The notes below the pieces were generated by a model. The model saw only the letters and a list, made by a program, of their open reading frames with translations. It had not been told where the DNA came from and made no database searches. From contig NZ_VISL01000001.1 of NCBI RefSeq assembly GCF_007827465.1, positions 1,226,501 to 1,290,500 on the forward strand: DNA of 64,000 nt, given 5' to 3'. Every line of letters begins with the position of its first letter. The first letter of the stretch is position 1. The DNA is from Dokdonia sp. Hel_I_53 (GTDB taxonomy: Bacteria; Bacteroidota; Bacteroidia; Flavobacteriales; Flavobacteriaceae). This document shows, in pieces, positions 2,835 through 61,972 of the stretch. The translations under genes and the position numbers were made by a program.

Positions 2835-2852
2835 ACGCTTTCGCGAAAGCGT
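2835..2852. repeat. GCTTTCGCGAAAGC palindrome, copy 1 (18 bp perfect)
   Basis: ACGCTTTCGCGAAAGCGT lies directly behind the T-run of the mdh terminator. Its right flank (AATTAG) is shared with the copy at 34175. Confidence 0.95.
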
Positions 2853-2918
2853 AATTAGCACCTCTAAGATTAATAAACTCAGAACTTATAATAATTAAAT
2901 AAGTACATACCAAATTAT

Positions 2919-2948
2919 TTGCTACTTAGACTGATAATATTATATTTG
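2919..2948 (+). promoter_or_regulatory. Housekeeping-type promoter of the 198-residue secreted protein
   Basis: TTG at 2919-2921, a 19-base spacer and TATATTTG at 2941-2948 match the Bacteroidetes primary-sigma consensus TTG-N19-TAnnTTTG. The GTG start follows 28 bases after the -7 box. Confidence 0.75.
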
Positions 2949-2976
2949 TGCGCTTGCTGAATAAATAAATAAGTTT

Positions 2977-3573
2977 GTGAGAAACAAGTGGTTTTTAAGT
3001 GCGTTTGTAATTGCCCTAGCTATATTAGGAATAAGCTTGGAGCAAAAAGATGTGCCTAATCAGGAGATTCTCATTACATTTTCGACTTCACAAAAAGGGC
3101 CTAATACTACTCATGACGCAATTGCTCTAGTTACTAGTAAATTACAAAGCACGGGCGCAAGTAATATAAAGGTTGAAGATCTACTGGACGGCACCTTGAA
3201 ACTCAGCTACCACAGTAAGCTAGACGTTTCTCAAATCCAAAATATTTTTAACGAAATAATTGAGAATAAGTCGTATACTTCCTCCTGTAAAAATTCCTTC
3301 CCTACTGAAAAAAGCACTATTTACTATGAGTTAGATATTTACAAAATTCAATACTCAAGCGATTTTGATGGTCCCGTGGGGCATATCATTGAATCAAAAT
3401 CAGAAACAACACGTGCTACTAGCTTTGATAACTATGCTTTTATTAGTAAGCAGAAAGCCAAAGAAAAAAATCTTTACAAGGCTAAAACAAAGGCAGTTCA
3501 TCTATACACCGCACTTGTAATTAAAAATCTCCAGTACAAAATACCAGAGGTACGTGCTGGTCCTATTTCTTAA
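2977..3573 (+). CDS. Uncharacterised membrane-anchored or secreted protein upstream of secDF
   Basis: I do not recognise this 198-residue protein. The start is GTG, supported by the promoter just upstream. Residues 5-21 (WFLSAFVIALAILGISL) form one hydrophobic segment, either an uncleaved anchor or a signal peptide. A soluble domain follows that looks alternating beta/alpha (EILITFS..., NIKVEDLLDGTLKLSYHS). That pattern, and the position just before secDF, suggest a small ferredoxin-like head comparable to the periplasmic part of SecD. This is inference only. A 159-base gap separates it from secDF with no terminator seen, so co-transcription is possible. Confidence 0.7.
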   Translation: MRNKWFLSAFVIALAILGISLEQKDVPNQEILITFSTSQKGPNTTHDAIALVTSKLQSTGASNIKVEDLLDGTLKLSYHSKLDVSQIQNIFNEIIENKSYTSSCKNSFPTEKSTIYYELDIYKIQYSSDFDGPVGHIIESKSETTRATSFDNYAFISKQKAKEKNLYKAKTKAVHLYTALVIKNLQYKIPEVRAGPIS

Positions 3574-3732
3574 ATTCTTACAAGATTATCTTACACCTAA
3601 GTTTTTTTATACTTATGGTCTTATCACCCGCTCAACTTCTTCGATGAAATAGGGCGCCTATTATTAATTATATTATCAATCTATTTAGGCAAGTACTTAT
3701 AATACTTGTTTAAATTACTACAAACATTAAAA

Positions 3733-6796: not shown

Positions 6797-6814
6797 ACGC
6801 TTTCGCGAAAGCGT
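6797..6814. repeat. GCTTTCGCGAAAGC palindrome, copy 2 (18 bp perfect)
   Basis: It lies in the convergent gap between secDF and queE, 27 bases past the secDF terminator T-run. Confidence 0.95.
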
Positions 6815-6890: not shown

Positions 6891-7541
6891 CTAAGGGATA
6901 TTTAAATATTTGTGAGTTTGTAGACTCACCTTCCATTTAGGGTTTGCCATCACATAATCTACTATAAGAGGTACTATTTTATCCCGTACAGACCATTCTG
7001 GCTGTAAATATAAAATACAATCATCCCCTACTTGCTCTGCATGTTTCTCTGCAAAAGTAAAATCAGATTTGTTGAAAATAATAACTTTAAGCTCGTTTGC
7101 TTTTTCTAGAACTGAAGGTGTTGGGAGCATTCGCTTTTTTGGTGATAAACAAATCCAATCCCATTCTCCAGAAAGTTGATAAGCACCAGAAGTTTCTATA
7201 TGAGTTGTAAGTCCAAGGCTTTTCAACTTTTCAGTAAGTGGGTTCATATCCCACATTAAAGGTTCCCCTCCTGTAACAACAATTGTATCAGAGTATTTTG
7301 CTGCATTTTGAGCAATAGTATCTGCACTGGTAGGTGGATGTATTGCAGCATCCCAGCTTTCCTTTACATCACACCAATGACAACCTACATCACAACCGCC
7401 TACACGAATAAAGTATGCAGCTGTCCCTTTATGAAAACCTTCTCCTTGAATGGTATAAAATTCTTCCATAAGAGGAAGCATTTCCCCGAGATCTACCTGT
7501 GCCTGTATCGCTTCTGAAGCTTGTTTTGTCATAGCTGGCAA
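6891..7541 (-). CDS. queE: 7-carboxy-7-deazaguanine synthase (radical SAM)
   Basis: It converts 6-carboxy-5,6,7,8-tetrahydropterin to 7-carboxy-7-deazaguanine on the way to queuosine in tRNA. The 216 residues contain the radical-SAM cluster motif as C50-x3-C54-x2-C57 (GGCDVGCHWC), the family opening FYTIQGEG, and the SAM-binding VTGGEPLM. The start could be the first Met or M4. The neighbours are convergent or divergent, so it stands alone and no other queuosine gene is in view. Confidence 0.92.
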   Translation of the reverse strand: MPAMTKQASEAIQAQVDLGEMLPLMEEFYTIQGEGFHKGTAAYFIRVGGCDVGCHWCDVKESWDAAIHPPTSADTIAQNAAKYSDTIVVTGGEPLMWDMNPLTEKLKSLGLTTHIETSGAYQLSGEWDWICLSPKKRMLPTPSVLEKANELKVIIFNKSDFTFAEKHAEQVGDDCILYLQPEWSVRDKIVPLIVDYVMANPKWKVSLQTHKYLNIP

Positions 7542-7640: not shown

Positions 7641-7645
7641 ATCAC

Positions 7646-7682: not shown

Positions 7683-7704
7683 AGTATTATGTGAAAATTG
7701 ATTT

Positions 7705-8507: not shown

Positions 8508-9770
8508 ATGAAATATGAAAATAATCTCGCTTTTGCGAAAGCGCAAGATCAGCAAGACCCATTAAAATCGTATAGAGATCAATTTTACATTCCAGTAGAC
8601 AATGATGAGAATGAGCTCATTTATTTTTGCGGGAATAGTCTAGGCTGCCAGCCAAAAGTTGTTGCTCAATATATAGAACAAGAACTAAACGACTGGGCAA
8701 ACCTAGGTGTAGAAGGACATTTTGATGCAGAAAATCCTTGGATGCCGTATCATGAGGAACTAGCAAAACCCATGGCAGAAATCGTGGGCGCAAAACCACA
8801 TGAAGTTGTAGTCATGAATACGCTCACAACTAACCTTCATTTGATGATGGTTTCCTTTTATAATCCTACAAAAAAGCGTCATAAAATCGTTATCGAGAGC
8901 GACGCTTTCCCGTCTGATAAATATGCGGTAGAAAGTCAAATAAGACAGCGCGGTTTTAATCCAAATGACACCTTAATATTATGGAAACCTAGGGAGGGAG
9001 AAGAACTTTGTAGATATGAAGATCTTGAGGCAATAGTAAAAGAACATGGTGAAAGTATTGCATTGTTGCTAATTGGTAATACTAATTACTATTCGGGTCA
9101 ATTTTACCCTATTCAAAAAATCACTCAATTAGGACATGCTAATGGCAGCAAAGTAGGTTTTGACCTCGCGCATGGTGTAGGTAACATTATGCCTAATTTA
9201 CATAAAAACGGACCTGACTTTGCTGTATGGTGTACCTATAAATACCTCAACAGTGGCCCTGGAAGTTTAGGTGGATGTTTTGTACATGAGCGCCATCATA
9301 AAGATGAAAAAATTCAGCGTTTTACGGGGTGGTGGGGACAAAATAAAGATACGAGATTTAACATGCGCAAAGGATTTGACCCAATCCCAACAGCCGAAGG
9401 ATGGCAATTATCAAACCCTCCTATCTTGAGTATGGCTGCTGTGAAGGCAAGCTTAGCTATTTTTGCTCAAGCGGGTATGAAAAACATACGTGAAAAGTCA
9501 GAAAAAATTACAGGGTATCTTGAGTTTCTCATCGATGACTTAAACAACGATAGGATTTCTATCATCACTCCTTCTGACCCTACACAACGTGGGTGCCAGC
9601 TAAGTATTCAAGTGAAAAATGCCGATAAAAGTTTGCATGAGCAGCTTACAAATGCTGGAGTAATTTCAGACTGGCGTGAACCAGATGTCATACGCGTGGC
9701 ACCAGCACCATTATATAATAGCTACCAAGATGTATTTGAAATGGTAGAGCGCCTTAAAAATATTCTTTAA
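8508..9770 (+). CDS. kynU: Kynureninase
   Basis: This PLP enzyme cleaves kynurenine or 3-hydroxykynurenine to (3-hydroxy)anthranilate plus alanine. At 420 residues it has the family length. The PLP lysine is K245 in WCTYKYLNSGPGS, the cofactor Asp is in GFDLAHG (D219), and the N-terminal YFCGNSLGCQP matches the family. Residues 8-12 (AFAKA) are encoded by a one-mismatch copy of the genome palindrome. It is the first gene of a seven-gene tryptophan-degradation operon. Its stop overlaps the next start (TAATG), implying translational coupling. Confidence 0.95.
   Translation: MKYENNLAFAKAQDQQDPLKSYRDQFYIPVDNDENELIYFCGNSLGCQPKVVAQYIEQELNDWANLGVEGHFDAENPWMPYHEELAKPMAEIVGAKPHEVVVMNTLTTNLHLMMVSFYNPTKKRHKIVIESDAFPSDKYAVESQIRQRGFNPNDTLILWKPREGEELCRYEDLEAIVKEHGESIALLLIGNTNYYSGQFYPIQKITQLGHANGSKVGFDLAHGVGNIMPNLHKNGPDFAVWCTYKYLNSGPGSLGGCFVHERHHKDEKIQRFTGWWGQNKDTRFNMRKGFDPIPTAEGWQLSNPPILSMAAVKASLAIFAQAGMKNIREKSEKITGYLEFLIDDLNNDRISIITPSDPTQRGCQLSIQVKNADKSLHEQLTNAGVISDWREPDVIRVAPAPLYNSYQDVFEMVERLKNIL
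8529..8542. repeat. Palindrome copy 4, one mismatch, inside kynU
   Basis: GCTTTTGCGAAAGC is read as AFAKA at residues 8-12, in the poorly conserved N-terminus ahead of the kynureninase fold. Confidence 0.8.
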
Positions 9771-12305: not shown

Positions 12306-13748
12306 ATGAAAATAAAAAATTACATAAACGGCGCTTATCAAAAGCCATTATCTAATGACTGGCTAGACAATTATGATCCATCTGTGGGTGAAGTTTATGG
12401 GCAAATACCCAATAGTAATTCTCATGATGTTGAGGAGGCTACCGCTTTCGCGAAAGCGGCATTCCCGGCTTGGTCATCTACCACACTGGAGGAGCGCAGT
12501 CGTATATTATTAAAAATTGCAGAAGGCATTGAAGCACAACTCGAAAAATTAGCTGAGGCCGAAAGTAGAGATAATGGAAAACCCATTTCACTTGCTACAA
12601 CAGTAGACATACCGAGAGCGGCTAGTAACTTTCGATTTTTTGCTAATGCTATCACCCAGTTTGCTAGCGAAAGTCACGAGAGTACTGGTACAAACACCAT
12701 AAACTTTACGCTAAGAAAACCCATAGGCGTTGTGGGATGCATTTCGCCGTGGAATTTACCATTGTATCTTTTTACGTGGAAAATTGCACCCGCAATTGCT
12801 GCAGGTAATTGCATCATTGCAAAGCCAAGTGAAGTAACCCCAATGACAGCTTACCTACTAGGAGAAATTTGTACAAATGCTGGATTGCCAGCAGGCGTTC
12901 TCAATATTGTTCATGGATTAGGAAATACTACAGGAAAGGCTATTTTAGAACATCCAGATATTAAAGCAATCAGTTTTACGGGAGGAACAAAAACGGGAGA
13001 ACACATCGCTCGCACTTGTGCCCCAATGTTTAAAAAACTATCCTTAGAACTTGGCGGTAAAAACCCCAACCTCATTTTTGCAGATTGTAATTATGAAGAG
13101 ATGCTCTCTACTACCCTACGCAGTTCTTTTGCAAATCAAGGGCAAATTTGCCTCTGTGGTAGCCGAATTTTTGTTGAAAGGTCTATTTATGCGAAGTTCA
13201 AGAGGGATTTCATTAGTAGAGTTGAAGAACTAGTTGTGGCTCATCCAGCACAAGAGAATGCAAACTTAGGAGCACTTGTATCTAAGTCGCATTTAGAAAA
13301 AGTTGAAGACTACATCAAGCATGCTGAAGATTACGGTGGTAAAATACTTTCTGGTGGTAAACGAGTAAATGTTGATGGCTATGAAAAAGGATATTACTTA
13401 CAACCAACTGTAATTGAAGTGTCAAATAATCATTGTAGATTAAATCAAGAAGAAATCTTTGGCCCCATCGTCACCATCATGCCTTTTGACAAAGATGATG
13501 AAGCCCTAAGGCTAGCAAACGGAACCAAGTACGGACTTTCTGCAACAGTATGGACGCAAAACTTAGATAGAGCCATGCGACTAGGAAATACTCTTGAAGC
13601 AGGAATCGTTTGGATAAACACCTGGATGAATCGGGATTTACGTACCCCTTTTGGCGGAGTTAAGGCCAGTGGTGTTGGTCGCGAAGGTGGTTTTGAAGCA
13701 TTACGATTTTTTACAGAGGCTAAGAATGTGTGTATAAAATATAATTAA
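12306..13748 (+). CDS. Aldehyde dehydrogenase, probably 2-aminomuconic semialdehyde dehydrogenase
   Basis: This is a 480-residue NAD-dependent ALDH with all catalytic residues: N150 (SPWNLP), E248 (LELGGKNPN) and Cys282 (NQGQICLCG). The SFTGGTKTG loop binds the cofactor. Context points to oxidation of 2-aminomuconate 6-semialdehyde to 2-aminomuconate. Residues 47-51 (AFAKA) are encoded by an exact palindrome copy, in a surface helix region where ALDHs vary. Confidence 0.9.
   Translation: MKIKNYINGAYQKPLSNDWLDNYDPSVGEVYGQIPNSNSHDVEEATAFAKAAFPAWSSTTLEERSRILLKIAEGIEAQLEKLAEAESRDNGKPISLATTVDIPRAASNFRFFANAITQFASESHESTGTNTINFTLRKPIGVVGCISPWNLPLYLFTWKIAPAIAAGNCIIAKPSEVTPMTAYLLGEICTNAGLPAGVLNIVHGLGNTTGKAILEHPDIKAISFTGGTKTGEHIARTCAPMFKKLSLELGGKNPNLIFADCNYEEMLSTTLRSSFANQGQICLCGSRIFVERSIYAKFKRDFISRVEELVVAHPAQENANLGALVSKSHLEKVEDYIKHAEDYGGKILSGGKRVNVDGYEKGYYLQPTVIEVSNNHCRLNQEEIFGPIVTIMPFDKDDEALRLANGTKYGLSATVWTQNLDRAMRLGNTLEAGIVWINTWMNRDLRTPFGGVKASGVGREGGFEALRFFTEAKNVCIKYN
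12442..12459. repeat. Palindrome copy 5 (18 bp, CCGC...GCGG arms) inside the ALDH gene
   Basis: CCGCTTTCGCGAAAGCGG is an 18-bp perfect palindrome whose outer arms differ from the ACGC...GCGT type. It is read as TAFAKA. Confidence 0.95.
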
Positions 13749-13788: not shown

Positions 13789-14568
13789 ATGAAGTTAAAT
13801 CTAACTAATAAAAATGCCCTTGTTTGCGGTTCTACTGCAGGAATTGGAAAAGCTACCGCAATTGGACTAGCCGAAGAAGGAGCAAATGTGACTCTCGCAG
13901 CCCGAACAGAGGAAAAGCTAAAAGCCGTACTTGCAGAGTTACCAAATAATGGCAATCAACAACACAGTTACGTAGTTGCAGATTTTACAAATCCGCGACA
14001 GGTGGCAGAAGCTGTTTCAGCAACTGAAAATGTATATCATATTCTAATTAATAATACGGGTGGACCTCCAGGTGGACCCATTGTAGATGCTGATGTAGAC
14101 GCTTTCGCGAAAGCGTTCACTCAACATTTACAAACCAATCACTTATTAGCACAAACGGTAATTCCTAGCATGAAATCTGAAGGTTACGGTAGGATTATCA
14201 ATGTGATTTCTACTTCTGTAAAGCAACCTCTCGATGGTCTAGGCGTGAGTAACACCATACGTGGTGCCGTGGCAAACTGGAGTAAAACCATGGCAAATGA
14301 GCTCGGGCAATTTGGTATCACTGTAAACAATGTACTTCCAGGAGCAACTGCAACTGGCAGACTTTCTGAAATTATTGAGAATAAAGCAAAGAAGACAGGA
14401 AAGACTGTAGACGAAGTTTCTAAAACAATGGCTAAAGCTTCGCCAGCAAATCGATTTGCAAAACCTGAAGAGGTAGCAAATGCAATTGTTTTTCTAGCGA
14501 GTGAAGCCGCCTCTTTTATCAATGGAATAAATGTGCCTGTAGATGGTGGACGTACTAAATCTTTGTAA
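13789..14568 (+). CDS. Atypical short-chain dehydrogenase/reductase in the kynurenine operon
   Basis: This 259-residue SDR has an intact Rossmann motif (CGSTAGIGKA, residues 13-22) and the late family motif VPVDGG. NNTGGPPGG replaces the usual NNAG. The catalytic YxxxK is absent: the aligned positions are L151 and N155 (LGVSNTIRGAV). A subgroup of SDRs with SNxxR here exists and lacks a proven activity. Residues 105-109 (AFAKA) come from a palindrome copy. It may act on a late intermediate of aminomuconate breakdown or bind NAD(P) without classical catalysis. Confidence 0.85.
   Translation: MKLNLTNKNALVCGSTAGIGKATAIGLAEEGANVTLAARTEEKLKAVLAELPNNGNQQHSYVVADFTNPRQVAEAVSATENVYHILINNTGGPPGGPIVDADVDAFAKAFTQHLQTNHLLAQTVIPSMKSEGYGRIINVISTSVKQPLDGLGVSNTIRGAVANWSKTMANELGQFGITVNNVLPGATATGRLSEIIENKAKKTGKTVDEVSKTMAKASPANRFAKPEEVANAIVFLASEAASFINGINVPVDGGRTKSL
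14099..14116. repeat. Palindrome copy 6 (18 bp perfect) inside the SDR gene
   Basis: ACGCTTTCGCGAAAGCGT is read as DAFAKAF, residues 104-110, between the NNTG motif and the active-site strand. Confidence 0.95.
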
Positions 14569-17324: not shown

Positions 17325-17972
17325 ATGCATTTTTTACCAGAAGAACTCGATGATTATGTAGTGAGGCACTCGGCAAATGAACCCGAGCATTTGAAAAGAC
17401 TCACAAAAGAAACTTACCAAAAGATTTTACAACCTAGAATGCTCTCTGGACCTTACCAAGGAAGGGTATTAAGTATGATTTCTAAGCTCCTACGACCTAT
17501 ATCCATTTTAGAAATTGGAACTTTTACAGGCTACAGTGCATTGTGTCTCGCAGAAGGCTTAAAAAAAAATGGTCTTTTACATACCATTGACATTAAAGAG
17601 GAAATGGTTGACTTTCAACGGAAGCACTTTGATTCTTCACCTTACGGTGAAGTGATCATACAGCATTTAGGGATGGCAATTGACATCATCCCTACAATTA
17701 ATACTACTTTTGACTTAGTTTTTATTGATGCAGATAAGTCTAATTATATTAATTATTTTAATTTGATCATTGATAAAATGAATCCTGAAGGTGTTATTCT
17801 CACTGATAATGTTTTGTGGAGTGGCAAAGTCACAAAACCTTTAAAAGATAAAGATATAGATACTGCGGTGTTACTAGATTATAACAAAATGATACACGAA
17901 GACCCACGTGTGGAGACAGTTATACTTCCTATTCGTGACGGTTTAACTATAAGCAGAGTTTTTAAACGTTAG
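17325..17972 (+). CDS. Class I O-methyltransferase (caffeoyl-CoA/TrmR-like family)
   Basis: This 215-residue SAM-dependent methyltransferase has the SAM motif ILEIGTFTGYSALCLAEGL near residue 62, the metal/substrate motif LVFIDADKSNYINYF, and the late TDNVLWSGKV with a metal-binding Asn. Family members methylate catechols or tRNA uridine-5-oxyacid (TrmR). The substrate cannot be chosen here, and no neighbour suggests one. A palindrome copy overlaps the stop codon region. Confidence 0.88.
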   Translation: MHFLPEELDDYVVRHSANEPEHLKRLTKETYQKILQPRMLSGPYQGRVLSMISKLLRPISILEIGTFTGYSALCLAEGLKKNGLLHTIDIKEEMVDFQRKHFDSSPYGEVIIQHLGMAIDIIPTINTTFDLVFIDADKSNYINYFNLIIDKMNPEGVILTDNVLWSGKVTKPLKDKDIDTAVLLDYNKMIHEDPRVETVILPIRDGLTISRVFKR

Positions 17973-17985
17973 CTTTCGCGAAAGC
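17972..17985. repeat. Palindrome copy 7, immediately after the methyltransferase stop
   Basis: GCTTTCGCGAAAGC begins on the last base of the TAG stop codon and lies just before the hairpin at 17992. Confidence 0.95.
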
Positions 17986-21613: not shown

Positions 21614-21627
21614 GCTTTCGCGAAAGC
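21614..21627. repeat. Palindrome copy 8, in the rpe leader
   Basis: GCTTTCGCGAAAGC with right flank GTAAAC. It would be transcribed in the rpe 5' UTR if the 21573 box is used. Confidence 0.95.
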
Positions 21628-23184: not shown

Positions 23185-23198
23185 GCTTTCGCGAAAGC
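23185..23198. repeat. Palindrome copy 9, upstream of the BI-1 gene
   Basis: GCTTTCGCGAAAGC, with flanks ATAC and GAAA. Confidence 0.95.
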
Positions 23199-26730: not shown

Positions 26731-27522
26731 TTAAGAAGTTTGCACAACACCTAGCGTATACAATTGCTCTAGCGTAGGTGATACACTACCACCTGCTGGT
26801 TCTAGAGTAATTCCAAAAGCTTCTGAACTATTTGGGTTGCTAAATTCAAATAGCTGACTACCCTGGGTATCGAATTCATTTAATACACCTAAACTCGTGG
26901 GTGTTAAAGGCTCAAGAGTGAGCGACCATACTTGATACACTTTTCCCTCTGGCGGCTCTGGCAAACCTTTTACATCTATATAGGCTTTATTATTTTCTTT
27001 ATCCCAAAAAACAGAGGCATATGCTTCGGGTGCAATTTCTTGTCCTGCTAGCGGTATAGAAATTACATTCCGAGCACGAACGACATCAAGCAACGATTTT
27101 GTTTGCTCTAAATTTTCTTCAGCAACTAGCGTTTTACCTTCTTGTAACAAGAGCTCTCGTTCTGTATCAACAATACGGTTTTCAAGTTCGGATTTTTCTG
27201 TGTAAACATATGCTAACCCAAAGAGTAATACCAATGCCGCTGCCCATCCAAGGTAGGAAGTAATAGGTGTTCGCTTTCGCGAAAGCGGTATTACATCTTC
27301 ATCCTTCTCAAAGGAGATGTTTAGATTTTTAAATTTTGGTTTATACGGTGCTGCAGCACTTGAAAGCTGCATCAGTGCACCTTCTATTGAAACAACTTCA
27401 TCGAGAAGAGTTTTATTTTCAAGTACTTCATGAGCAACCTTTACCATCTCGTCTTCTGGGAGAGTTCCATAAACAAAAAGTTCTAAAACCCCTGAATCTA
27501 TATATGTGTTTTCATCTTTCAC
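26731..27522 (-). CDS. RskA-like anti-sigma factor
   Basis: This 263-residue single-pass protein has a cytoplasmic N-terminal anti-sigma domain (residues 1-60; GVLELFVYGTLPEDEMVKV), a membrane segment (WAAALVLLFGLAYVY, about 93-107), a short coiled coil, and an extracytoplasmic RskA domain (VYQVWSLTLEPLTPTSLG, FGITLEPAGG). It should hold the adjacent ECF sigma at the membrane until a signal triggers proteolysis. The gene overlaps the sigma gene by 4 bases. Residues 79-84 (PLSRKR), just before the membrane, are encoded by a palindrome copy. Confidence 0.9.
   Translation of the reverse strand: MKDENTYIDSGVLELFVYGTLPEDEMVKVAHEVLENKTLLDEVVSIEGALMQLSSAAAPYKPKFKNLNISFEKDEDVIPLSRKRTPITSYLGWAAALVLLFGLAYVYTEKSELENRIVDTERELLLQEGKTLVAEENLEQTKSLLDVVRARNVISIPLAGQEIAPEAYASVFWDKENNKAYIDVKGLPEPPEGKVYQVWSLTLEPLTPTSLGVLNEFDTQGSQLFEFSNPNSSEAFGITLEPAGGSVSPTLEQLYTLGVVQTS
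27273..27286. repeat. Palindrome copy 10, inside the anti-sigma gene
   Basis: GCTTTCGCGAAAGC is read on the minus strand as PLSRK, in the linker between the anti-sigma domain and the membrane helix. Confidence 0.95.
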
Positions 27523-29809: not shown

Positions 29810-31141
29810 ATGACTATAAAACAATTCGAATATAAGCCTCTAGCTCATTACTCTTACGCTATCATAAGCGATGGCAAAATGGCGGTAGTAGATCCAGAGA
29901 GAGACCCTTCACAGTATTACGCTTTCGCGAAAGCGAATAATGCAGAAATAGTAGCAGTAATTGAAACTCATCCCCATGCAGATTTTGTGAGCTCACATTT
30001 AGAAATTCACAAAACAACTGGCGCTACTATATATAATAGTGAAGAACTAGGCGCAGATTATCCTCACAAATCTTTTGATAGTGGTGATCACATTGAACTA
30101 GGACAAATAACACTTAAGGCAATTAACACTCCAGGTCACTCACCAGATAGCATCACAATTGTAGCAACTCAAGGTGATGAGACTGCCATGTTTACTGGTG
30201 ACACTCTTTTTATAGGTGACGTAGGTAGACCAGATCTCAGAGAGAAAGCAGGTAATATGCAAGCTAAGAGAGAAGAGCTAGCAGAGATGATGTATGAAAC
30301 AATTACAACAAAATTTACTGATTTGCCAGATGATGCTTTGGTATATCCTGCTCATGGTGCAGGTTCATTATGTGGTAAAAACCTAAGTGATGCAAATAGC
30401 AGTACATTAGGTAATGAGCGCATGGGAAATTGGGCCTTTAAAAAGCAGACTAAAGAGGAATTTATGGATGTGCTTCTTGATGGTCAACCATTTATACCAT
30501 CTTATTTTGGTTTTGATGTAGATCTTAATAAAACGGGAGCAGATAATCTTGAATCATCAATTAATGGTGTACCATTATCTGAAGGCACAACCGCAACCGG
30601 AATTATTGTAGATACTAGAGATGAGGAATCTTTTAAAAATGGCCACTTAGAAGGTAGCTTTAATATACAAGCTGTTTCTGATAATGCTAAATTTGAAACT
30701 TGGTTAGGTTCTATTATTAAACCTGAAGAAAAGTTTACGATGGTGCTTGATCACAAAGATTCTGAAAAGAAACTATTAAATCGTATTGCAAAAATTGGCT
30801 ATGAGAAAATTATTCTCAAGACTATAACCTTACCTAAAGATTTTCTAGCTATTACAGAAAAATTAGACGTCCAAGATTTTGAAAAAAATCCTGACAATTA
30901 TACCATCGTAGATATACGTAATACAAGTGAAATTGAGGAAGGGAAAATTTTTGAAAGTGCTTTACCTCACCCACTTAATGAACTGAGAGACACTGCTAGT
31001 GAAATTCCTACTGATAAACCTATTGTTGTTCATTGTGCAGGAGGTTATAGAAGTGCTGCTGGAAGTAGTATACTACAAAGCATACTTGAAGATGTCACGA
31101 TTTACGACCTAAGTGATGATGTGAAAAAATTTCAAGACTAA
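29810..31141 (+). CDS. CstB-like persulfide dioxygenase-rhodanese fusion
   Basis: The 443 residues have the same plan and length as S. aureus CstB. An N-terminal metallo-beta-lactamase/persulfide-dioxygenase domain carries metal motif H54-x-H56-x-D58, H110 and D131 (FTGDTLFIGDVGRPD). HGAGSLCGK follows at 182-190, then a rhodanese-like domain without active Cys (about 260-345), and a C-terminal rhodanese with C409 (VVHCAGGYRSAAG). Such enzymes turn low-molecular-weight persulfides into thiol plus sulfite or thiosulfate. Residues 38-42 (AFAKA) come from a palindrome copy. It sits between an exporter and YeeE/YedE genes. Confidence 0.9.
   Translation: MTIKQFEYKPLAHYSYAIISDGKMAVVDPERDPSQYYAFAKANNAEIVAVIETHPHADFVSSHLEIHKTTGATIYNSEELGADYPHKSFDSGDHIELGQITLKAINTPGHSPDSITIVATQGDETAMFTGDTLFIGDVGRPDLREKAGNMQAKREELAEMMYETITTKFTDLPDDALVYPAHGAGSLCGKNLSDANSSTLGNERMGNWAFKKQTKEEFMDVLLDGQPFIPSYFGFDVDLNKTGADNLESSINGVPLSEGTTATGIIVDTRDEESFKNGHLEGSFNIQAVSDNAKFETWLGSIIKPEEKFTMVLDHKDSEKKLLNRIAKIGYEKIILKTITLPKDFLAITEKLDVQDFEKNPDNYTIVDIRNTSEIEEGKIFESALPHPLNELRDTASEIPTDKPIVVHCAGGYRSAAGSSILQSILEDVTIYDLSDDVKKFQD
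29921..29934. repeat. Palindrome copy 11, inside the CstB-like gene
   Basis: GCTTTCGCGAAAGC is read as AFAKA (residues 38-42), just before the strand leading into the first metal motif. Confidence 0.95.
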
Positions 31142-34174: not shown

Positions 34175-34188
34175 GCTTTCGCGAAAGC
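34175..34188. repeat. Palindrome copy 12 (22 bp TTACGC...GCGTAA)
   Basis: TTACGCTTTCGCGAAAGCGTAA is a 22-bp perfect palindrome in a non-coding gap. It shares the flank AATTAG with copy 1. Confidence 0.95.
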
Positions 34189-37992: not shown

Positions 37993-38006
37993 GCTTTCGC
38001 GAAAGC
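37993..38006. repeat. Palindrome copy 13, just upstream of tRNA-Arg
   Basis: GCTTTCGCGAAAGC lies 7 bases from the mature 5' end of the tRNA, so it would fall in the precursor leader. Confidence 0.95.
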
Positions 38007-42301: not shown

Positions 42302-42315
42302 GCTTTCGCGAAAGC
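42302..42315. repeat. Palindrome copy 14, between ftsQ and ftsA
   Basis: GCTTTCGCGAAAGC lies in the 154-base gap, the longest gap between adjacent dcw genes on this side. Confidence 0.95.
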
Positions 42316-43123: not shown

Positions 43124-44465
43124 CCGTTAATTTTCTTGTTACTTTTAATATTTCAACACCTATATCTCCAGCGCCCATCATTACAATTATTTTTTGTGTT
43201 GCTGCACTTACTGTATTATAAAGCTGTTCTTTAGCAATAATTTGCTTTCGCGAAAGCGTCATTTTAGATAATAGCACATTACTTGTCACTCCTGAAATAG
43301 GAAGTTCTCTTGCAGGATAAATGTCCAGTAATACAACCTCGTCAAACCCGCTTAACTCACGAGCAAAATCTTCCATAAAATCTTTTGTACGTGAGAATAA
43401 ATGTGGCTGAAATATAGCCATCACCTCTTCCTTAGGATACATCTCTCTTACGCTTTGGTGCACGGCGGCTATTTCTGTAGGATGGTGTGCATAATCATCT
43501 ATTAAAACAAGATCCGTTCTTTTAACCCTATAAGTAAAACGCCTGTTTACACCTGTATAACTCAATAAAGCGGCGTGTAATTGTTCTTTTTCTGTTCCGT
43601 ATGCCATTGCCATTGCTAATGCTGTGATAGCATTAAACAGATTATGCCTGCCAGGTAAATTACTTCTAAGACCTATAAGTTCTCCCTCTGGGTATTTTAA
43701 ATCAAAAACATATTGTCCGTCTTGCACCTGTATATTTTGTGCACAGTAATCTGATGCATCTTCAATACCTACTGTATTTCCTTCCAGCGGAAGTCCGTTT
43801 TTGATAAATCGATTTTTTGAAGGAACTAGTAAACCAAATTCTTGGAATGTGCTTATTAGTTCATCTTCACTAGCATATATATCCAGATGATCTGCATCCA
43901 TTGATGTTATACAGATAAGATTAGGCTTAAGTTGAAGGAATGAACGGTCAAACTCATCTGCTTCTACTACAACAACTTCGTTTCCTTTTTGAATCAAGTT
44001 GCCATTGTAATTATTTGTGATCCCTCCCACAAAAGCTGTGACAGGAGCACCAGTCGCGGCGAGTAAGTGTCCTAAAATACTTGATGTAGTGGTTTTTCCG
44101 TGTGTTCCTGCTACGGCTAAACTATAAATGCCACGAGTAATTAGACCAAGTACTTCTGCACGTTTCTTTATGTTATACCCGCTTTTGCGAAAATATTGCA
44201 ATTCGCCAAAACTATCAGGTACAGCTGGAGTATACACAATCAAAGTGTCGTCTATAGATTCAAATCCCTCTACTACATTTGACCCATTATCTTCATAATG
44301 GATAGCAATTCCAGAGCTTTCTAAATCGCGTGTAATATCTGACGGCGTTTTATCGTAACCGGCAACTCTATTACCTTCATTATGAAAATATACCGCTAAG
44401 GCACTCATGCCAATACCGCCTATACCTACAAAATAAATATTTGATATGTTATCTAGTGATCGCAT
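43113..44465 (-). CDS. murC: UDP-N-acetylmuramate--L-alanine ligase
   Basis: It adds the first L-Ala to UDP-MurNAc with ATP. The 450 residues have the N-terminal GIGGIGMSALA nucleotide motif, the P-loop AGTHGKTTTSS (119-129), LVVVEADEFDRSFL-type metal residues and DDYAHHPTEI. Residues 403-407 (LSRKQ region) are encoded by a palindrome copy in the C-terminal domain. It lies 2 bases after murG in the dcw cluster. Confidence 0.96.
   Translation of the reverse strand: MRSLDNISNIYFVGIGGIGMSALAVYFHNEGNRVAGYDKTPSDITRDLESSGIAIHYEDNGSNVVEGFESIDDTLIVYTPAVPDSFGELQYFRKSGYNIKKRAEVLGLITRGIYSLAVAGTHGKTTTSSILGHLLAATGAPVTAFVGGITNNYNGNLIQKGNEVVVVEADEFDRSFLQLKPNLICITSMDADHLDIYASEDELISTFQEFGLLVPSKNRFIKNGLPLEGNTVGIEDASDYCAQNIQVQDGQYVFDLKYPEGELIGLRSNLPGRHNLFNAITALAMAMAYGTEKEQLHAALLSYTGVNRRFTYRVKRTDLVLIDDYAHHPTEIAAVHQSVREMYPKEEVMAIFQPHLFSRTKDFMEDFARELSGFDEVVLLDIYPARELPISGVTSNVLLSKMTLSRKQIIAKEQLYNTVSAATQKIIVMMGAGDIGVEILKVTRKLTGEN
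43244..43257. repeat. Palindrome copy 15, inside murC
   Basis: GCTTTCGCGAAAGC is read on the minus strand as LSRK in MTLSRKQI, near residue 404. Confidence 0.95.
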
Positions 44466-46792: not shown

Positions 46793-46806
46793 GCTTTCGC
46801 GAAAGC
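46793..46806. repeat. Palindrome copy 16, between murD and ftsW
   Basis: GCTTTCGCGAAAGC lies 33 bases upstream of the ftsW start codon. Confidence 0.95.
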
Positions 46807-48224: not shown

Positions 48225-48238
48225 GCTTTCGCGAAAGC
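48225..48238. repeat. Palindrome copy 17, filling the mraY-murD junction
   Basis: GCTTTCGCGAAAGC takes up 14 of the 21 bases between the mraY stop and the murD start, so it covers the murD ribosome-binding region. Confidence 0.95.
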
Positions 48239-50943: not shown

Positions 50944-52931
50944 GATAATTCTAAGGTTATAGGTTTGTTTTTTTCTAGTTTTAATCCAGGTTTTAGAGAT
51001 TGGCTTTTCACTTTCCCGCTTCCGCGAAAGCGTACACTGAGCCCTAAGTTTTCTAACAAGGAGACTGCATCCATACCTGACATTCCTTTTACATCTGGAA
51101 TTGTTTCAAAGCCCTTATTAACATTTGCATAGTAGCGCTGGTAATCATTCTCGACAACTGTTGAACTTTTCATAGGAAGTGCTAGCTCGTCAACTACCGG
51201 AGTATCTGAATAAATTTTTTGAGCTATCTCTTTAAAAACCGGAGCAGCAACTATATTACCGTAATAGCCTAATTCTTTTTTAGGCTTATGCACCACAACA
51301 ATGCAAGAATACTTTGGATTATCTGCCGGAAAATACCCTGCAAAAGAAGAGATATATCTACCTGGTTCAATCCAGTATTCTACCTGACAAGTTCCTGTCT
51401 TTCCAGCCATTGAAAATTCTGGACTATAAATATTGCTTGCCGTTCCATGTTCTACAGTATTCTTCATCATTTGCTTTACAGCACCTATGGTTTCTTGCGA
51501 TGCAATTCGGGAGTTAAGTACTTCCTTATCAAAACGCTCTATACTACGATCCCATTCCTTAACCTCTTTAATAAAACGAGGTTTCACCATCTCACCATTA
51601 TTAGCCACTGCATTGTAGAAAGTGAGGGTCTGCAATGGTGTGAGCTGAACTCCATACCCAAAAGCCATCCACGGCAATGTAGTACCGTACCAATTATCAT
51701 CGCCTGGGTAAGGAAACTTTGGAACACCTTCTCCTTTTATTTCCAATCCCAGCTTTTCGTTGAGACCCATATTAAAAAGCCTCTTTAAAAATTGCTCTGG
51801 ATTATCTTTATAACTTTCGTTAATCATTTTGGCGAAAGCTGTATTACTACTAAGCTCAAATGCTTTTGAAGCCGTAATTTTACCGTAGCCACCCCATTTT
51901 GAGTCATAAACAGTACGATCATAAAATTTCACACGACCATTTTCTGTATCGAGTACGGTACTAGAATCTATGACCTTATCTTCAAGCGCAGCGACCATAG
52001 ACATCAGCTTAAATGTTGACCCTGGCTCGTGAGATTCACCTACTGCATAATTAAGCCTCTCATAATATTTTCCCGCTGATGTACGCCCTAGATTTGAGAT
52101 AGCTTTAATTTCACCAGTCCCAGTCTCCATTACCACTACACTACCGTGATCTGCCTCAAACTTTTGTAGACTACTCAATAATGCGTTATGTGCGACATCT
52201 TGAATATTTACATCTATAGTAGAAATTACATCGTAGCCATCGCGAGGGTCTACAGCATTACCTACGCCTATAGGCTTCCATTCTCCATTTGCGATTTTTT
52301 GTTTAAGACGACGCCCTTCCTTCCCTCTTAAATAAGAACCATAGGCACCCTCTAAACCAACTCGAGTATAGTAACCACTATCATCCTGACGCTCATAACC
52401 TACCGTACGCTCTGCCATTTTTTCTAATGGATGCTCGCGCTCTGTATGTTCCTCTACGATCACACCACCTCTGTATTGACCCTTATTAAAAAGTGGTAAT
52501 GCTTTTAATTTTATATAATCTGCATACCCTAACTTTCGAGCTATGAATAAATATCTATTTTTTGTTGACCTAGCTTTACGAAGTCTGTTTTCATAATATG
52601 CAGGTGTTTTACCTAACATTTTTGAAAGGCCCTTAGAAAGACCCACAATATGCTCATTAAAATCTTCATTTGAAGGGGAAATGGCATCCCATCGTATATC
52701 ATATTTAATTTGAGAAGTAGCAAGTAAACTCCCGTCTTCTGCATAAAGATTCCCTCTTGTTGCGGGAATAATATCCATTTTTTCTGTGCTCTTTACCGCC
52801 ATCTCGCGATACTTATCACCTTGAAAAATTTGTATTGCTACAAGCTTATACCCAACAATAATCGCCAGGATGAACATACATCCTGCGACAAAATATAAAC
52901 GATTCAATATGTCTTTTTCTCTTGCTGCCAC
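50940..52931 (-). CDS. ftsI: Septal transpeptidase FtsI / PBP3 with PASTA domain
   Basis: This 663-residue class B penicillin-binding protein has an N-terminal membrane helix (FVAGCMFILAIIVGYKLVAI), a dimerisation/pedestal domain, and a transpeptidase with SxxK (GSTFKLMS), SxN (SSNTAFAK) and KTG (AGKTGTCQ). A C-terminal PASTA domain begins near GFETIPDVKGMSGMDAV. A one-mismatch palindrome in the PASTA part encodes RFRGS. It lies 6 bases after the FtsL-like gene. Confidence 0.95.
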   Translation of the reverse strand: MAAREKDILNRLYFVAGCMFILAIIVGYKLVAIQIFQGDKYREMAVKSTEKMDIIPATRGNLYAEDGSLLATSQIKYDIRWDAISPSNEDFNEHIVGLSKGLSKMLGKTPAYYENRLRKARSTKNRYLFIARKLGYADYIKLKALPLFNKGQYRGGVIVEEHTEREHPLEKMAERTVGYERQDDSGYYTRVGLEGAYGSYLRGKEGRRLKQKIANGEWKPIGVGNAVDPRDGYDVISTIDVNIQDVAHNALLSSLQKFEADHGSVVVMETGTGEIKAISNLGRTSAGKYYERLNYAVGESHEPGSTFKLMSMVAALEDKVIDSSTVLDTENGRVKFYDRTVYDSKWGGYGKITASKAFELSSNTAFAKMINESYKDNPEQFLKRLFNMGLNEKLGLEIKGEGVPKFPYPGDDNWYGTTLPWMAFGYGVQLTPLQTLTFYNAVANNGEMVKPRFIKEVKEWDRSIERFDKEVLNSRIASQETIGAVKQMMKNTVEHGTASNIYSPEFSMAGKTGTCQVEYWIEPGRYISSFAGYFPADNPKYSCIVVVHKPKKELGYYGNIVAAPVFKEIAQKIYSDTPVVDELALPMKSSTVVENDYQRYYANVNKGFETIPDVKGMSGMDAVSLLENLGLSVRFRGSGKVKSQSLKPGLKLEKNKPITLELS
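51018..51031. repeat. Palindrome copy 18, one mismatch, inside ftsI
   Basis: GCTTCCGCGAAAGC is read on the minus strand as RFRGS in the PASTA domain, about 30 residues from the end. Confidence 0.8.
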
Positions 52932-56532: not shown

Positions 56533-56895
56533 TTAAATCAATTTCTTTACCTCATCAATTAGTTTGTCTATAGAATCTAAAGCATTCATTTTTTCAGTTG
56601 TTATTCCTACTTCTATCTCTTCAGCTCGTTGAATTAAAAGGATTGGAAAACTATACTTAGGCAACCACTTAGAATTATATTTCTTTAAGAACTCATCCTT
56701 ATGTAAAAATTCAAATGGGATACTTACGCTTTCGCGAAAGCGTAACCACTCTTTCTTCTCTTTTAAAATGCCATGTGTTAGACTACACAGATTACAATTA
56801 TAAGTTGAAGGACTCAAAAGTTTATGCCCCACATCTAGCAAAGCATTGTGCTTTCCTGAATTTGCATTATAAACAAAGAGGAATTTTTTAATCAC
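56533..56895 (-). CDS. Uncharacterised 120-residue protein
   Basis: I do not recognise this family. The start KKFLFVYNANSGKHNALLDVGHKL looks conserved, with a CNLC pair (C34, C37) and a mixed alpha/beta pattern. No signal or membrane segment is present. Residues 52-56 (RFRES) are encoded by a palindrome copy. Its ATG overlaps the gldC stop by 4 bases, so it belongs to the gldB-gldC transcript. Confidence 0.72.
   Translation of the reverse strand: MIKKFLFVYNANSGKHNALLDVGHKLLSPSTYNCNLCSLTHGILKEKKEWLRFRESVSIPFEFLHKDEFLKKYNSKWLPKYSFPILLIQRAEEIEVGITTEKMNALDSIDKLIDEVKKLI
56728..56741. repeat. Palindrome copy 19 (22 bp TTACGC...GCGTAA), inside the 120-residue gene
   Basis: TTACGCTTTCGCGAAAGCGTAA, 22 bp perfect, is read on the minus strand as LRFRESVS. 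It uses a third reading frame compared with AFAKA and LSRK copies. Confidence 0.95.
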
Positions 56896-59214: not shown

Positions 59215-59853
59215 ATGAACAAAGTCTTAATTGCAGACCACCATCCAATTACTAGAAAAGGAATATCATCAATACTCCTAGCTGAAGGTAATTTCGAAGT
59301 CATTGGCTCCGTGCAAGATGGTAATGATCTTTTAGAGACATTAAACTCAAAAGAGGTTGATTTACTTATTCTAGAAATTGATATACCTAACCTCAACAGT
59401 ATTACAGCTCTAAAGGCTATAAAACGTGAATTTCCTAACATTAAAATATTAGTATTAAGCTGCCATCCAGAAGAGATGTATGCATTAAGTTCTATAAAAT
59501 ATGGGGCAGCTGGCTATGTAAGCAAAACAGCTTCTATACAAAGAGTTCTTGATGCTATTAATCAAGTTCAACGCGGTGGAATCTATATTAATGAATCCTT
59601 GAGCAAGCAATTAGTTAGTGAAGGTAACGCTGGACAAGGGCTCGCTTATAAATACAAAAAACTATCCAGCAGAGAAATTGAGGTTCTTAATTTGTTATCT
59701 AATGGAAAACGCAACAAAGAGATTGCCCACGAACTCAATATTAACGAGAAAACAGTGAGCACTTATAAAATGAGACTTCTCAAAAAGCTCGAAGCACAAA
59801 ACGTAGCAGAACTCATTAAACATGCACGTTTGCTACAAAGCAGCCACGTTTAG
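59215..59853 (+). CDS. NarL/LuxR-type response regulator with altered phospho-acceptor site
   Basis: The 212 residues form an N-terminal receiver and a C-terminal LuxR HTH (LSSREIEVLNLLSNGKRNKEIAHELNINEKTVSTYKMRLLKKL). The receiver is atypical: the acceptor position holds E54 (LLILEIDIPN, normally D-I-x-M-P), and the acidic pair is D8-H9 (IADHHP, normally DD). The Lys (SKTAS) is kept. Glu may mimic phosphorylation and leave it always active or under another signal. No kinase gene is adjacent. It converges on dnaG with a 4-base overlap. Confidence 0.88.
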   Translation: MNKVLIADHHPITRKGISSILLAEGNFEVIGSVQDGNDLLETLNSKEVDLLILEIDIPNLNSITALKAIKREFPNIKILVLSCHPEEMYALSSIKYGAAGYVSKTASIQRVLDAINQVQRGGIYINESLSKQLVSEGNAGQGLAYKYKKLSSREIEVLNLLSNGKRNKEIAHELNINEKTVSTYKMRLLKKLEAQNVAELIKHARLLQSSHV

Positions 59854-61817
59854 ACTGATAAAACCCTTCCTAATTTATTTCCTAACAGCGTATTGAGAGA
59901 TTGATAATCGAGAATGTCTTTGATAATATCATTATTTTCAGAGCTGTTTTGAGTTTGCTCCATTAAATCCTTTATCTTTTGTGTTATCAGGTATTTTCTC
60001 AAACTTAACACTGTCTCTGAAACAAACTGTGATATAGAGGTATCTTTTTTACGGACATACACTTCTCTAGTATCCCAGCGATGCAATTCATACTTCTCAT
60101 CGTTGAGAATAATATTTGAGATTTCTGATGCTTCTTCAGGCGCTAACTCATTGATGAAATTTTGAACTTGAAAGTTAGGGTCTGCATGCAATCGCTCCAC
60201 GATTTTTGCGTATAGTGTCTTGAAAAGATCATTTGTAAACTCTACCTCATCATCTTGTAGGTCTAGATATATTTTTTCAAAAACTTTTGATGTATGCACA
60301 ACTGGCTCAAGTTTTACGTTGCCATGATCATCTTCCGTCATAACGAGGTCTTCAAAATCTTCTTCCTTATGACCGTAAAGTAGTAATGCTTCGATAAGTT
60401 TCCGTTCTAACTCATAAAGAACATTTATTTTTTCTGACCTAGAAACAGCTTCGTTTGCAACTACAGACATTTCACCTGTAGCTTTAATTGGAGCTTTTTT
60501 TGAGGACTCTTTTCTGTTTTTATTTAAAATCTGAGCAAGAGTATTATACAACACATTTTCAGAAATATCCATTATTCTAGCACACTCTTGGATATAAATC
60601 TCTTGTTTAATAGCATCGGGTATTTTTGAAATACTCTCTACCATATCTCGCACAGTTCCAGCTTTTTTTACTGGATCTCCAGCGGCTTCCTTTACAAGTA
60701 AGTTTGCTTTGAACTGAATAAAATCTTGAGCGTTCTCCTTAAAATAGTCGAGAATTTCATCTCTAGAATGTTTTCGAGCAAATGAATCTGGATCTTCTCC
60801 TTCTGGAAAAGAACACACTTTGACGTTCATCCCCTGCTCTAGAATAAGGTCAATACCTCTTATGGCAGCACGCTCTCCTGCGGCATCACCATCAAAGAGT
60901 ACCGTAATATTCTTTGTAAGTCTATTTACTAATCGTATTTGATCTGCTGTAAGCGCTGTTCCTGATGAAGAAACAACATTTTCGATTCCAGATTGATGCA
61001 TTTGAATCACATCTGTATACCCTTCAACGAGGTAGCAATTGTCTTCCTTTGCTATCGCTTGTTTTGCATAATAAATACCATAGAGCACTTTACTCTTGTG
61101 ATAAATATCACTCTCTGGAGAGTTAAGATATTTTGCCGCTTTTTTACTGCTATCCAATATTCGCCCACCAAAACCTAAGACACGGCCACTCATGGAATGT
61201 ATTGGAAACATCACTCTTCCTTTAAATCGGTCAAATTGTTTCTCTTCTTTTACTATGGAAAGTCCCGTTTTTTCTAAGAATTCTAATTTGTATCCTTTAC
61301 GAAGAGCCTCTCCAGTAAATGCATCCCATTGATCAAGATTATATCCGAGCTCAAATTTTTCTATAGTTTCATCTGTAAAGCCTCGCTCTTTAAAATAGGA
61401 GAGACCTATCGCTTTTCCCTGCTCAGTTTGAAGTAACGTTTTATGAAAATAATCTCGTGCATACTCACTTACGAGATACATACTTTCCCGCTCGTTTGCC
61501 TGCTCTTTTTGCTCGTCTGTTTGCTCAGTTTCTTCTACCTCAATATTATACTTCTTAGCAAGATATTTTATTGCTTCTGGATACGTAAAATGCTCATGTT
61601 CCATTATAAACGAAACCGCAGAACCACCTTTTCCACTTGAAAAATCTTTCCAAATTTGTTTTACAGGTGATACCATAAAACTTGGTGACCTTTCATCTGT
61701 AAAGGGAGAGAGTCCCTTAAAATTAGAGCCAGATTTTTTAAGATTAACAAAGTCACCTATTACCTCCTCTACTCGAGCAGTTTCAAATACTTTAGCTATG
61801 GTTTCTTTACTTATCAA
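59850..61817 (-). CDS. dnaG: DNA primase DnaG with degenerate zinc-binding domain
   Basis: It makes RNA primers for replication. The 655 residues comprise an N-terminal CHC2-type domain, a TOPRIM catalytic core (NCYLVEGYTDVIQMHQSG, VLFDGDAAGERAAIRG) and a C-terminal helicase-binding region. The four zinc ligands of the N-terminal domain are replaced: KGLSPFT and WKDFSSGKGG stand for the usual KGLCPFH and YHCFGCGKGG (S37, T40, D58, S61). The fold markers around them are kept, so the domain probably survives without zinc. Confidence 0.94.
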   Translation of the reverse strand: MISKETIAKVFETARVEEVIGDFVNLKKSGSNFKGLSPFTDERSPSFMVSPVKQIWKDFSSGKGGSAVSFIMEHEHFTYPEAIKYLAKKYNIEVEETEQTDEQKEQANERESMYLVSEYARDYFHKTLLQTEQGKAIGLSYFKERGFTDETIEKFELGYNLDQWDAFTGEALRKGYKLEFLEKTGLSIVKEEKQFDRFKGRVMFPIHSMSGRVLGFGGRILDSSKKAAKYLNSPESDIYHKSKVLYGIYYAKQAIAKEDNCYLVEGYTDVIQMHQSGIENVVSSSGTALTADQIRLVNRLTKNITVLFDGDAAGERAAIRGIDLILEQGMNVKVCSFPEGEDPDSFARKHSRDEILDYFKENAQDFIQFKANLLVKEAAGDPVKKAGTVRDMVESISKIPDAIKQEIYIQECARIMDISENVLYNTLAQILNKNRKESSKKAPIKATGEMSVVANEAVSRSEKINVLYELERKLIEALLLYGHKEEDFEDLVMTEDDHGNVKLEPVVHTSKVFEKIYLDLQDDEVEFTNDLFKTLYAKIVERLHADPNFQVQNFINELAPEEASEISNIILNDEKYELHRWDTREVYVRKKDTSISQFVSETVLSLRKYLITQKIKDLMEQTQNSSENNDIIKDILDYQSLNTLLGNKLGRVLSV

Positions 61818-61901
61818 AGGAGGATATTATCTGAGTTAAAAATAAAACAGTTTGTAAAAATAGTTTAAAAAATTACAACCCAATAATACTTAAATAGAGA
61901 T

Positions 61902-61940
61902 ATAAAAATAGCCTAAACTCCATTGAGTCTAGGCTATTTT
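61902..61940 (-). terminator. Terminator of the 62004 outer-membrane protein gene
   Basis: AAAATAGCCTA-A-ACTC pairs with GAGT-C-TAGGCTATTTT (15 bp, one mismatch). Ts follow on the minus strand. Confidence 0.87.
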
Positions 61941-61958
61941 AAGATTTTGGATATCTAC

Positions 61959-61972
61959 GCTTTCGCGAAAGC
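61959..61972. repeat. Palindrome copy 20, between dnaG and the 62004 gene
   Basis: GCTTTCGCGAAAGC lies between the 62004 gene and its terminator hairpin, so it is in the 3' UTR. Confidence 0.95.

Follow-up and report, generated by a model that had tools for sequence, protein, structure and literature searches.

A 14-bp palindrome with G-poor arms repeated throughout the Dokdonia genome, a possible DNA self-recognition signal

Copies of the palindrome in the window

The window analyzed here is a 64-kb stretch of Dokdonia sp. Hel_I_53 (contig NZ_VISL01000001.1, positions 1,226,501 to 1,290,500), in which the 14-bp palindrome GCTTTCGCGAAAGC was found in 17 exact copies from 2837 to 61972. Its matches in 100 dinucleotide-preserving shuffles of the window averaged 0.02, with a maximum of 1. 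The initial annotation of this DNA had counted the same 17 copies as far above chance, together with three one-mismatch forms; the recount gives two of the latter, at 8529 and 51018. It had also noted that at least five copies are extended, and five indeed continue to the 18-bp ACGCTTTCGCGAAAGCGT while two reach 22 bp. The reading favored here, tentatively, is that of a signal for self-recognition of DNA.

Genes, in the window and in the larger sample of this genome, were taken as open reading frames (ORFs) of at least 90 amino acids. Eleven of the 19 copies lie outside them (11 of the 17 exact ones and neither one-mismatch form), so that the annotated excess in gaps is retained and the annotated count of 12 in 20 is not. 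Exact copies stand in gaps at 2837..2850 (extending to 22 bp), 6799..6812 (between convergent ORFs, extending to 18 bp), 21614..21627, 23185..23198 (between divergent ORFs), 34175..34188 (extending to 22 bp, its RNA form being a 13-bp hairpin with no T-run), 37993..38006 (adjoining tRNA-Arg, 37912-37986) and 61959..61972. The copy at 17972..17985 overlaps the final base, in the stop codon, of ORF 17325-17972 and was counted outside genes. Within ORFs, exact copies in phase 0 were found at 12444..12457 (ORF 12306-13748, aldehyde dehydrogenase family), 14101..14114 (ORF 13789-14568, extending to 18 bp) and 29921..29934 (ORF 29810-31141, metallo-beta-lactamase and rhodanese domains), and another lies at 27273..27286 in the minus-strand ORF 26731-27522. 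The one-mismatch copies GCTTTTGCGAAAGC (8529..8542) and GCTTCCGCGAAAGC (51018..51031) fall within ORF 8508-9770 and ORF 50940-52931, respectively.

Turnover of copies was followed in an alignment of the cell-division gene cluster of the window with ten Dokdonia-type loci, which have 68-75% DNA identity to the window. The gap copy at 42302..42315 is exact in three of the ten Dokdonia-type sequences covering the site, as is the coding copy at 43244..43257, within ORF 43113-44465, where the rest have other sequence without gaps. The gap copy at 46793..46806 is exact in 6 of 11 sequences; that at 48225..48238, in a gap of 21 bases, is exact in 7 of 11 with one mismatch in two more. The copy at 56728..56741 (minus-strand ORF 56533-56895, extending to 18 bp) is exact in 5 of 10 covering sequences. 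Alignment columns 15236, 16060 and 16173, all in ORF 43113-44465, are gap-free in every covering sequence, with or without the motif, across the 14-mer site and the 8 positions flanking it to the left and right. At column 16060, as read from the alignment, one species has Ala-Phe-Ala-Lys-Ala and the others Asp/Glu/Gly-Phe-Ala-x-Glu/Gln. Columns 871, 2095 and 2122 have gaps in or near the site in one or two sequences, and the intergenic places are not decisive. At the three coding places, the alignment indicates that copies arose by substitution in place and were not inserted as a unit. Origin by point mutation is likewise a trait of the DNA uptake sequences (DUS) of Neisseriaceae and the uptake signal sequences (USS) of Pasteurellaceae, in which the excess of word over expectation falls 92- and 82-fold from 0 to 1 mismatch (PMC1939737).

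Mismatch gradient and the symmetric arms

The Dokdonia genome containing the window (G000; 2.93 Mb, one contig) holds 700 exact 14-mers, about one per 4.2 kb, and none of a reversed control pattern; background frequency in the rest of the genome, which the initial annotation had named as fatal to its proposal, was therefore not found. A 464-kb sample of G000, composed of the window and 20 stretches of 20 kb and used for the genome counts below, contains 110 exact, 14 one-mismatch, 20 two-mismatch and 29 three-mismatch words. Relative to base composition, the observed/expected ratios are 2.1e5, 534, 34 and 3.5 at 0, 1, 2 and 3 mismatches. The last is considered background because the same ratio was found in 70 non-Dokdonia loci. 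The drop from 0 to 1 mismatch is thus about 390-fold, a strong excess of the exact word such as distinguishes DUS and USS, and two control palindromes of matching composition have no occurrence at 0 or 1 mismatch. Once the 14-mer was masked, the inner words TCGCGA and CGCG showed no enrichment, and the signal is therefore the whole 14-mer; the inner word TTCGCGAA is mildly enriched outside it (18 vs 8.9 expected). The sampled stretches hold 2-8 copies per 20 kb, with no evident gradient along the genome. Analogous 10-mers were sought in the 70 non-Dokdonia loci of about 21 kb and nothing comparable was found, although a sparser motif would escape such a search. A separate word, ACAACGGTCT, occurs eight times in 20 kb of stretch L063 (G230 C1:1-20000), where 0.02 are expected.

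The core is flanked by arms. Moving outward on each strand, +1 favors G and +3 and +4 favor A, while +2 prefers T in Dokdonia and G/A in the distant genus g11, a related dialect on the same core. Beyond +4, each strand avoids G to about +20. Between +4 and +20, C and G were counted 813 and 316 times in G000 (109 sites), 348 and 68 times in g11 (39 sites), 498 and 177 times in other Dokdonia (orthologous loci), 188 and 93 times in g210, and 338 and 131 times on the mobile islands described below. Seven control words in G000 gave G/(G+C) of 0.46-0.58, two of the seven having fewer than 10 sites. The G-poor arms are alike in gaps and ORFs and on sense and antisense sides, are weaker in g210, and have composition in common, not sequence. 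Avoidance of G outward on both strands, around a 14-mer core, therefore defines a signal with two-fold symmetry and a length of about 54 bp, of which about 20 bp form the arm on either side. The annotated remark that a symmetric motif cannot mark replication direction applies to the core and to the signal as a whole, but each arm by itself has outward strand polarity. Since the flanks share composition and not sequence, and coding copies arose in place, the copies do not belong to one longer transposed unit, the other outcome that the initial annotation had set against itself.

Placement and spacing

Of the 110 exact copies in the sample, 58 lie in the 12.5% of the DNA outside ORFs, about eight times the coding density; of the 52 within ORFs, 26 encode Ala-Phe-Ala-Lys by their phase. 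Convergent gaps hold 12 copies in 7.3 kb and divergent gaps 7 in 14.7 kb. The spacing of copies is more even than chance, so the earlier statement that they are not clustered was correct and understated. Among the first listed sites of each genome, intervals shorter than 1 kb number 2 of 99 in G000 and 2 of 66 in G016, against 20.0 and 16.3 for random placement. When placement was weighted toward intergenic DNA, one such interval was seen against 23.8 expected, the minimum of 3000 simulations being 11. The corresponding figures are 1 vs 7.4 in g11 and 1 vs 13.4 in other Dokdonia loci, which are orthologous and hence not independent; g210 has too few sites for judgment. Mutual exclusion of copies therefore operates at distances of less than about 1 kb. 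The one clear exception is a pair 222-223 bp apart (G000:C1:411628/411851, G116:C3:94528/94750 and G326:C4:16492/16714), which marks DNA common to Dokdonia and two g96 genomes.

Distribution among genomes

Loci around a MurD-type gene of the window were compared in the best 80 of 544 relatives. All ten Dokdonia-type loci (nine labeled Dokdonia and one Cytophagaceae, the latter with 77% identity) hold the motif, and none of the 70 others does. The 17 other genomes drawn from the genus have 369-905 copies each. In the family, 5 of 349 genomes exceed 400 copies: G000, G011, G230 of g210 (408), and G027 and G281 of g11 (578 and 664). The remaining 344 have 0-19, with at least one copy in 67. In a draw of 395 genomes from the phylum, none apart from G000 exceeds 6 copies, and none outside the family exceeds 1. 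The motif was annotated as species-specific, which it is not, because it is genus-wide, occurs in g210 and g11, and is found on mobile islands.

The MurD identity to G000 is 77-84% in congeners, 75% in g210, 74% in g164, 68-70% in g96 and 61% in g11; the g164 genomes hold 9 and 6 copies despite their 74%. SecDF ranks g210 and g164 in the same way, g11 not being among the matches listed. Because MurD ranks the carrier g11 below the non-carriers g164 and g96, the carriers are not one clade by these markers, with the reservation that a ranking by identity cannot stand in for a tree. In the genes compared, stretches of g11 resemble Dokdonia no more closely than they resemble other genera.

Islands, bare DNA and viruses

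Copies in non-carriers are often clustered. All 16 in G116 lie within 78 kb, 18 of 19 in G326 lie in two stretches, and 16 of 17 in G091 lie on two contigs, while G184 and G368 have theirs largely dispersed. Sixteen stretches from 12 non-carrier genomes were sampled, and 14 of them share DNA similarity with another, the exceptions being L060 and L067. Pfam searches on the genes of L053, L054, L056 and L057 gave P-type ATPases, resistance-nodulation-division (RND) pumps, a multicopper oxidase, HlyD-type adaptors, TraG, DUF4138 and RteC, by which these four stretches are recognizable as conjugative elements with metal-resistance cargo. At one island site the exact 14-mer is present in 8 of 10 versions, the ninth having one mismatch and the tenth six, with flanks 73-100% identical; at several other sites it is conserved in a minority only. 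Either the islands have lived under a force that keeps the motif, or they carry it out of carriers. Seven genomes, which belong to six genera, have a copy pair exactly 933 bp apart (G141, G118, G254, G127, G116, G326 and G200). By this spacing of the 14-mer, L053, L056, L057, L059 and their relatives can be recognized as a family of conjugative metal-resistance islands across many Flavobacteriaceae genera.

The longest of the first 99 intervals in G000 is 20 kb without copies (L270, G000 C1:391001-411000). Its ORFs from 6935 to 16126 encode an Eco57I/MmeI-type methylase, an OLD-type AAA protein and a UvrD-type helicase, and we take it, from its likeness to Gabija, to be a defense island. This suggests that acquired DNA may be poor in copies. 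A repeat array at L035:13272-19190 and L037:7746-19726 (G000 C1, about 0.61 and 0.91 Mb) also has no 14-mer. Its elements of about 120-300 bp share AGGCCACTGC and CGCTTTATGC in both orientations, with 10 of each in L037, and it is perhaps a gene-cassette array.

The motif was found in at least 120 stretches of viral contigs, many of which are of high G+C, so that many of these matches are likely due to chance. Arms resembling those of Dokdonia (at most 4 G in 34 positions) are present in 21 of the 120 stretches. PHROGs searches on 10 proteins from five of the 21 identified portal, major head and tape-measure proteins in L256 and an integrase in L184. Gene sizes shared by L235, L256 and L259, which carry 3, 2 and 2 copies, suggest that they are the same siphophage. 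With its head, portal and tape-measure proteins, L256 shows that at least one siphophage carries the motif.

Search for a reader

Methylases, ParB, AddAB and transformation genes were compared among carriers and non-carriers. Among nine carriers and six non-carriers, the methylase family PF00145 was found in three and four genomes, respectively, and PF01555, over the cut-off, in two and one; both are absent from G000, G008, G010 and G281. None of either family, the only two methylase families tested, is conserved across the nine carriers. A canonical ParB is present once in all 15 genomes; one of the nine carriers has a second copy, as do two of the six non-carriers, so that an extra, carrier-specific ParB paralogue is not supported in this set. 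A shared AddAB is likewise not upheld: AddB of g11 has 36-38% identity to Dokdonia and 35-39% to non-carriers and does not follow carriage. Within Dokdonia, three genomes with a constant motif have AddA proteins of no more than 45-60% identity (none was retrieved from g11). For the nucleoid or repair protein proposed in the initial annotation, ParB and AddAB, the two candidates tested, gave no support.

Transformation in Riemerella was reported to need ComEC, DprA, ComF, RecA and four further proteins; among these four is a DUF5689/DUF5017 surface protein whose gene adjoins that of an outer-membrane protein with a carboxypeptidase regulatory domain, the pair being essential (PMC8459023). DUF5689 and PF13620 genes are direct neighbors at both loci examined, that of G000 and that of G281 from g11, with DUF5017 below the cut-off in the G000 protein. 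An uptake route through this pair is plausible; among the proteins compared, none emerged as the determinant of specificity. Exo_endo_phos_3 genes near the pair (L467:2865-3875, L467:8319-9377 and L468:141-1232) possibly encode DNA-processing nucleases. The C-terminal half of DUF5689 proteins is of two sequence types (L405, L401, L411 and L412 versus L395, L396 and others), which do not match motif carriage.

A candidate self-recognition signal

The arm structure, mutual exclusion, in-place origin and island clustering are new findings over the initial annotation. Among the candidates which that annotation listed, a DNA-uptake tag is the best fit. We propose, with a probability of roughly 45%, that the motif is a self-recognition signal of the DUS kind, serving Dokdonia, g210 and g11, a distant genus. 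Some part of the transformation machinery that binds DNA would recognize the symmetric signal over its length of about 54 bp, so that fragments bearing one copy would be taken up preferentially. Recombination with imported fragments would then spread copies that had arisen by point mutation, in a molecular drive, and copies would settle where proteins and promoters tolerate them. A second copy on one fragment would add nothing, and within this mechanism copies would therefore stay more than about 1 kb apart. Both the uptake bias and the place of the reader in the uptake machinery are parts that we infer. The mismatch gradient, in-place substitution, exclusion, arms, roughly eightfold intergenic enrichment and g11 dialect speak for such a tag, and the DUF5689/PF13620 pair and the bare defense island would agree with it.

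Several observations weigh against it. An intracellular binding site would also account for the gradient, spacing and turnover, and the palindromic core is unlike DUS and USS. Dialects of DUS and USS follow phylogeny, yet the 14-mer is carried by g11, at 61% MurD identity the most distant genus compared by that marker. All 19 genomes tested, nine carriers and ten non-carriers, have the DUF5689 family, and its protein is not supported as sole determinant of specificity, since only three alignment columns are shared by eight or more of the carriers and by no more than three of the non-carriers. A phage would not be expected to need an uptake tag, and carriage of host-like arms by a siphophage would not be predicted unless it were a long-resident prophage. 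As to acquired DNA, the 20-kb defense island is bare, yet metal islands and the siphophage carry the 14-mer, and two further long gaps hold ordinary genes of pheT, recG and uvrD type (few ORFs were scanned). The open-licence literature that turned up for the uptake reading does not mention Dokdonia; no report of the motif was found there, and no open-licence paper containing the 14-mer or its inner words was relevant by title and abstract. Confidence stays below one half in view of siphophage carriage, the distance of g11, the occurrence of the machinery in non-carriers and a reader that the comparisons did not reveal. More doubtful still is the wider claim, by which this would be the first DNA self-recognition signal in Bacteroidota and the first anywhere with two-fold symmetry, its reader being a component of the flavobacterial outer-membrane uptake system. 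Two distant marine genera would then form one DNA-exchange community, which the signal would leave on metal-resistance islands.

A serious though unlikely alternative is that the copies are sites of a nucleoid-organizing or chromosome-maintenance protein, one anchor per few kilobases, each selected individually. Even spacing, exclusion below about 1 kb and the absence of an evident gradient in the sampled genome agree with it, as do a palindromic core that suits a dimeric protein and the strong conservation at some orthologous places (7/11). However, selection at 700 separate sites would need to be strong, and a distant genus sharing the 54-bp site, together with carriage by metal-resistance islands and phage, is hard to explain; ParB, the one such family tested, has no carrier-specific paralogue.

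Improbable, too, is a bidirectional Chi-like site, at which the recombination helicase-nuclease, coming from either direction, would read the core in single-stranded form and the G-poor arm would serve as its context; phages and islands would carry the site for protection. The strand-specific arms 3' of each half, a density near that of Chi in E. coli and the presence of the motif on islands and a siphophage fall in with this, but mutual exclusion and intergenic enrichment would be unexpected, known Chi sites are 5-8 nt and not palindromic, AddB of g11 does not follow carriage, and the divergence of AddA within Dokdonia does not accord with a constant motif.

Very little speaks for methylase action as the origin and upkeep of the motif, perhaps by way of methyl-directed mismatch repair, a mechanism proposed for the HIP1 palindrome of cyanobacteria. 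The 14-mer is centered on CGCG, HIP1 has been tied to methylases (PMC4390886), the repair model gives a length scale of roughly 1 kb, and the Eco57I-type methylase in the G000 defense island is of a family other than the two tested. Restriction or methylation at a short word, and with it the annotated possibility of a methylase target, is nevertheless weakened by the lack of enrichment of TCGCGA and CGCG outside the motif (TTCGCGAA being mildly enriched) and by the lack of conservation of PF00145 and PF01555, the families examined.

An RNA-level element, such as a hairpin terminator or 3' stabilizer spread downstream of genes, is barely credible: the one site folded, 34165-34200, forms a hairpin (-15.7 kcal/mol, z -5.4) and convergent gaps are denser than divergent ones, but no T-run follows in the pooled G000 gap sites, outward T being at or below background from +3 to +10, and 52 of 110 copies lie inside ORFs with the same arms. 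A small self-spreading repeat of the repetitive extragenic palindrome (REP) or miniature inverted-repeat transposable element (MITE) kind, also annotated as a candidate, can practically be dismissed despite hundreds of near-identical, gap-enriched copies, since columns 15236, 16060 and 16173 are gap-free with and without the motif, the arms are alike in composition only, and copies avoid each other.

If the uptake tag is true, the unexplained preference of flavobacterial transformation for own DNA becomes directly testable, and the motif offers a tool for Dokdonia genetics and a convenient means of tracing DNA as it moves among marine genera. Otherwise, a DNA-binding protein that has about 700 sites in each genome is yet to be discovered.

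Comparison with known systems

To our knowledge, few genome-saturating tags of known function exist, and we know of no other system with this geometry. The motif is common to lineages that are not nearest relatives by the core genes compared, and it is unlike DUS, USS, HIP1 and Chi in form. REP and MITE repeats are inserted as units, which the coding copies were not, and intrinsic terminators consist of a hairpin followed by a T-run, which the pooled gap sites lack. The ParB and Noc sites (parS and NBS) are palindromes of 14-16 bp bound by dimers, and in this they resemble the 14-mer, but the latter has 700 copies and no carrier-specific ParB paralogue. Chi, read by RecBCD or AddAB, has a similar density and strand-specific 3' context, whereas the 14-mer is longer, palindromic, mutually exclusive and enriched in gaps, and AddB does not follow its carriage.

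The initial annotation named HIP1 as the closest parallel. That holds for abundance and palindromy, HIP1 being a highly iterated perfect palindrome across whole genomes (PMC4390886), and for nothing further. The HIP1 word GCGATCGC of 8 bp is not GCTTTCGCGAAAGC, and CGATCG occurs 15 times against 21.6 expected; the present motif has 14 bp with G-poor arms, its embedded short words are not enriched, and no PF00145 or PF01555 methylase is conserved among its carriers.

No route through a receptor of the type IV pilus kind is known to us in Bacteroidota. Own-DNA preference was described in Riemerella columbina, where k-mer counts gave candidate words of unproven function (PMC7965970). The 14-mer differs from DUS and USS in its palindromic core, in having arms on both sides, in its Bacteroidota host, in a dialect that is not phylogenetic, as seen in g11, and in siphophage carriage. 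For DUS, an association of intergenic pairs with terminators was reported (PMC3630211), and DUS content marks integrative and conjugative elements in Neisseria (PMC7371117). The arms of USS are weaker and AT-rich, and the dialects of both follow phylogeny (PMC12616744). Like the 14-mer, DUS and USS have hundreds of copies, a strict core, a steep mismatch gradient, origin by point mutation, placement at permissive sites, weaker arms in the case of USS, dialects, and use as a marker of mobile islands.

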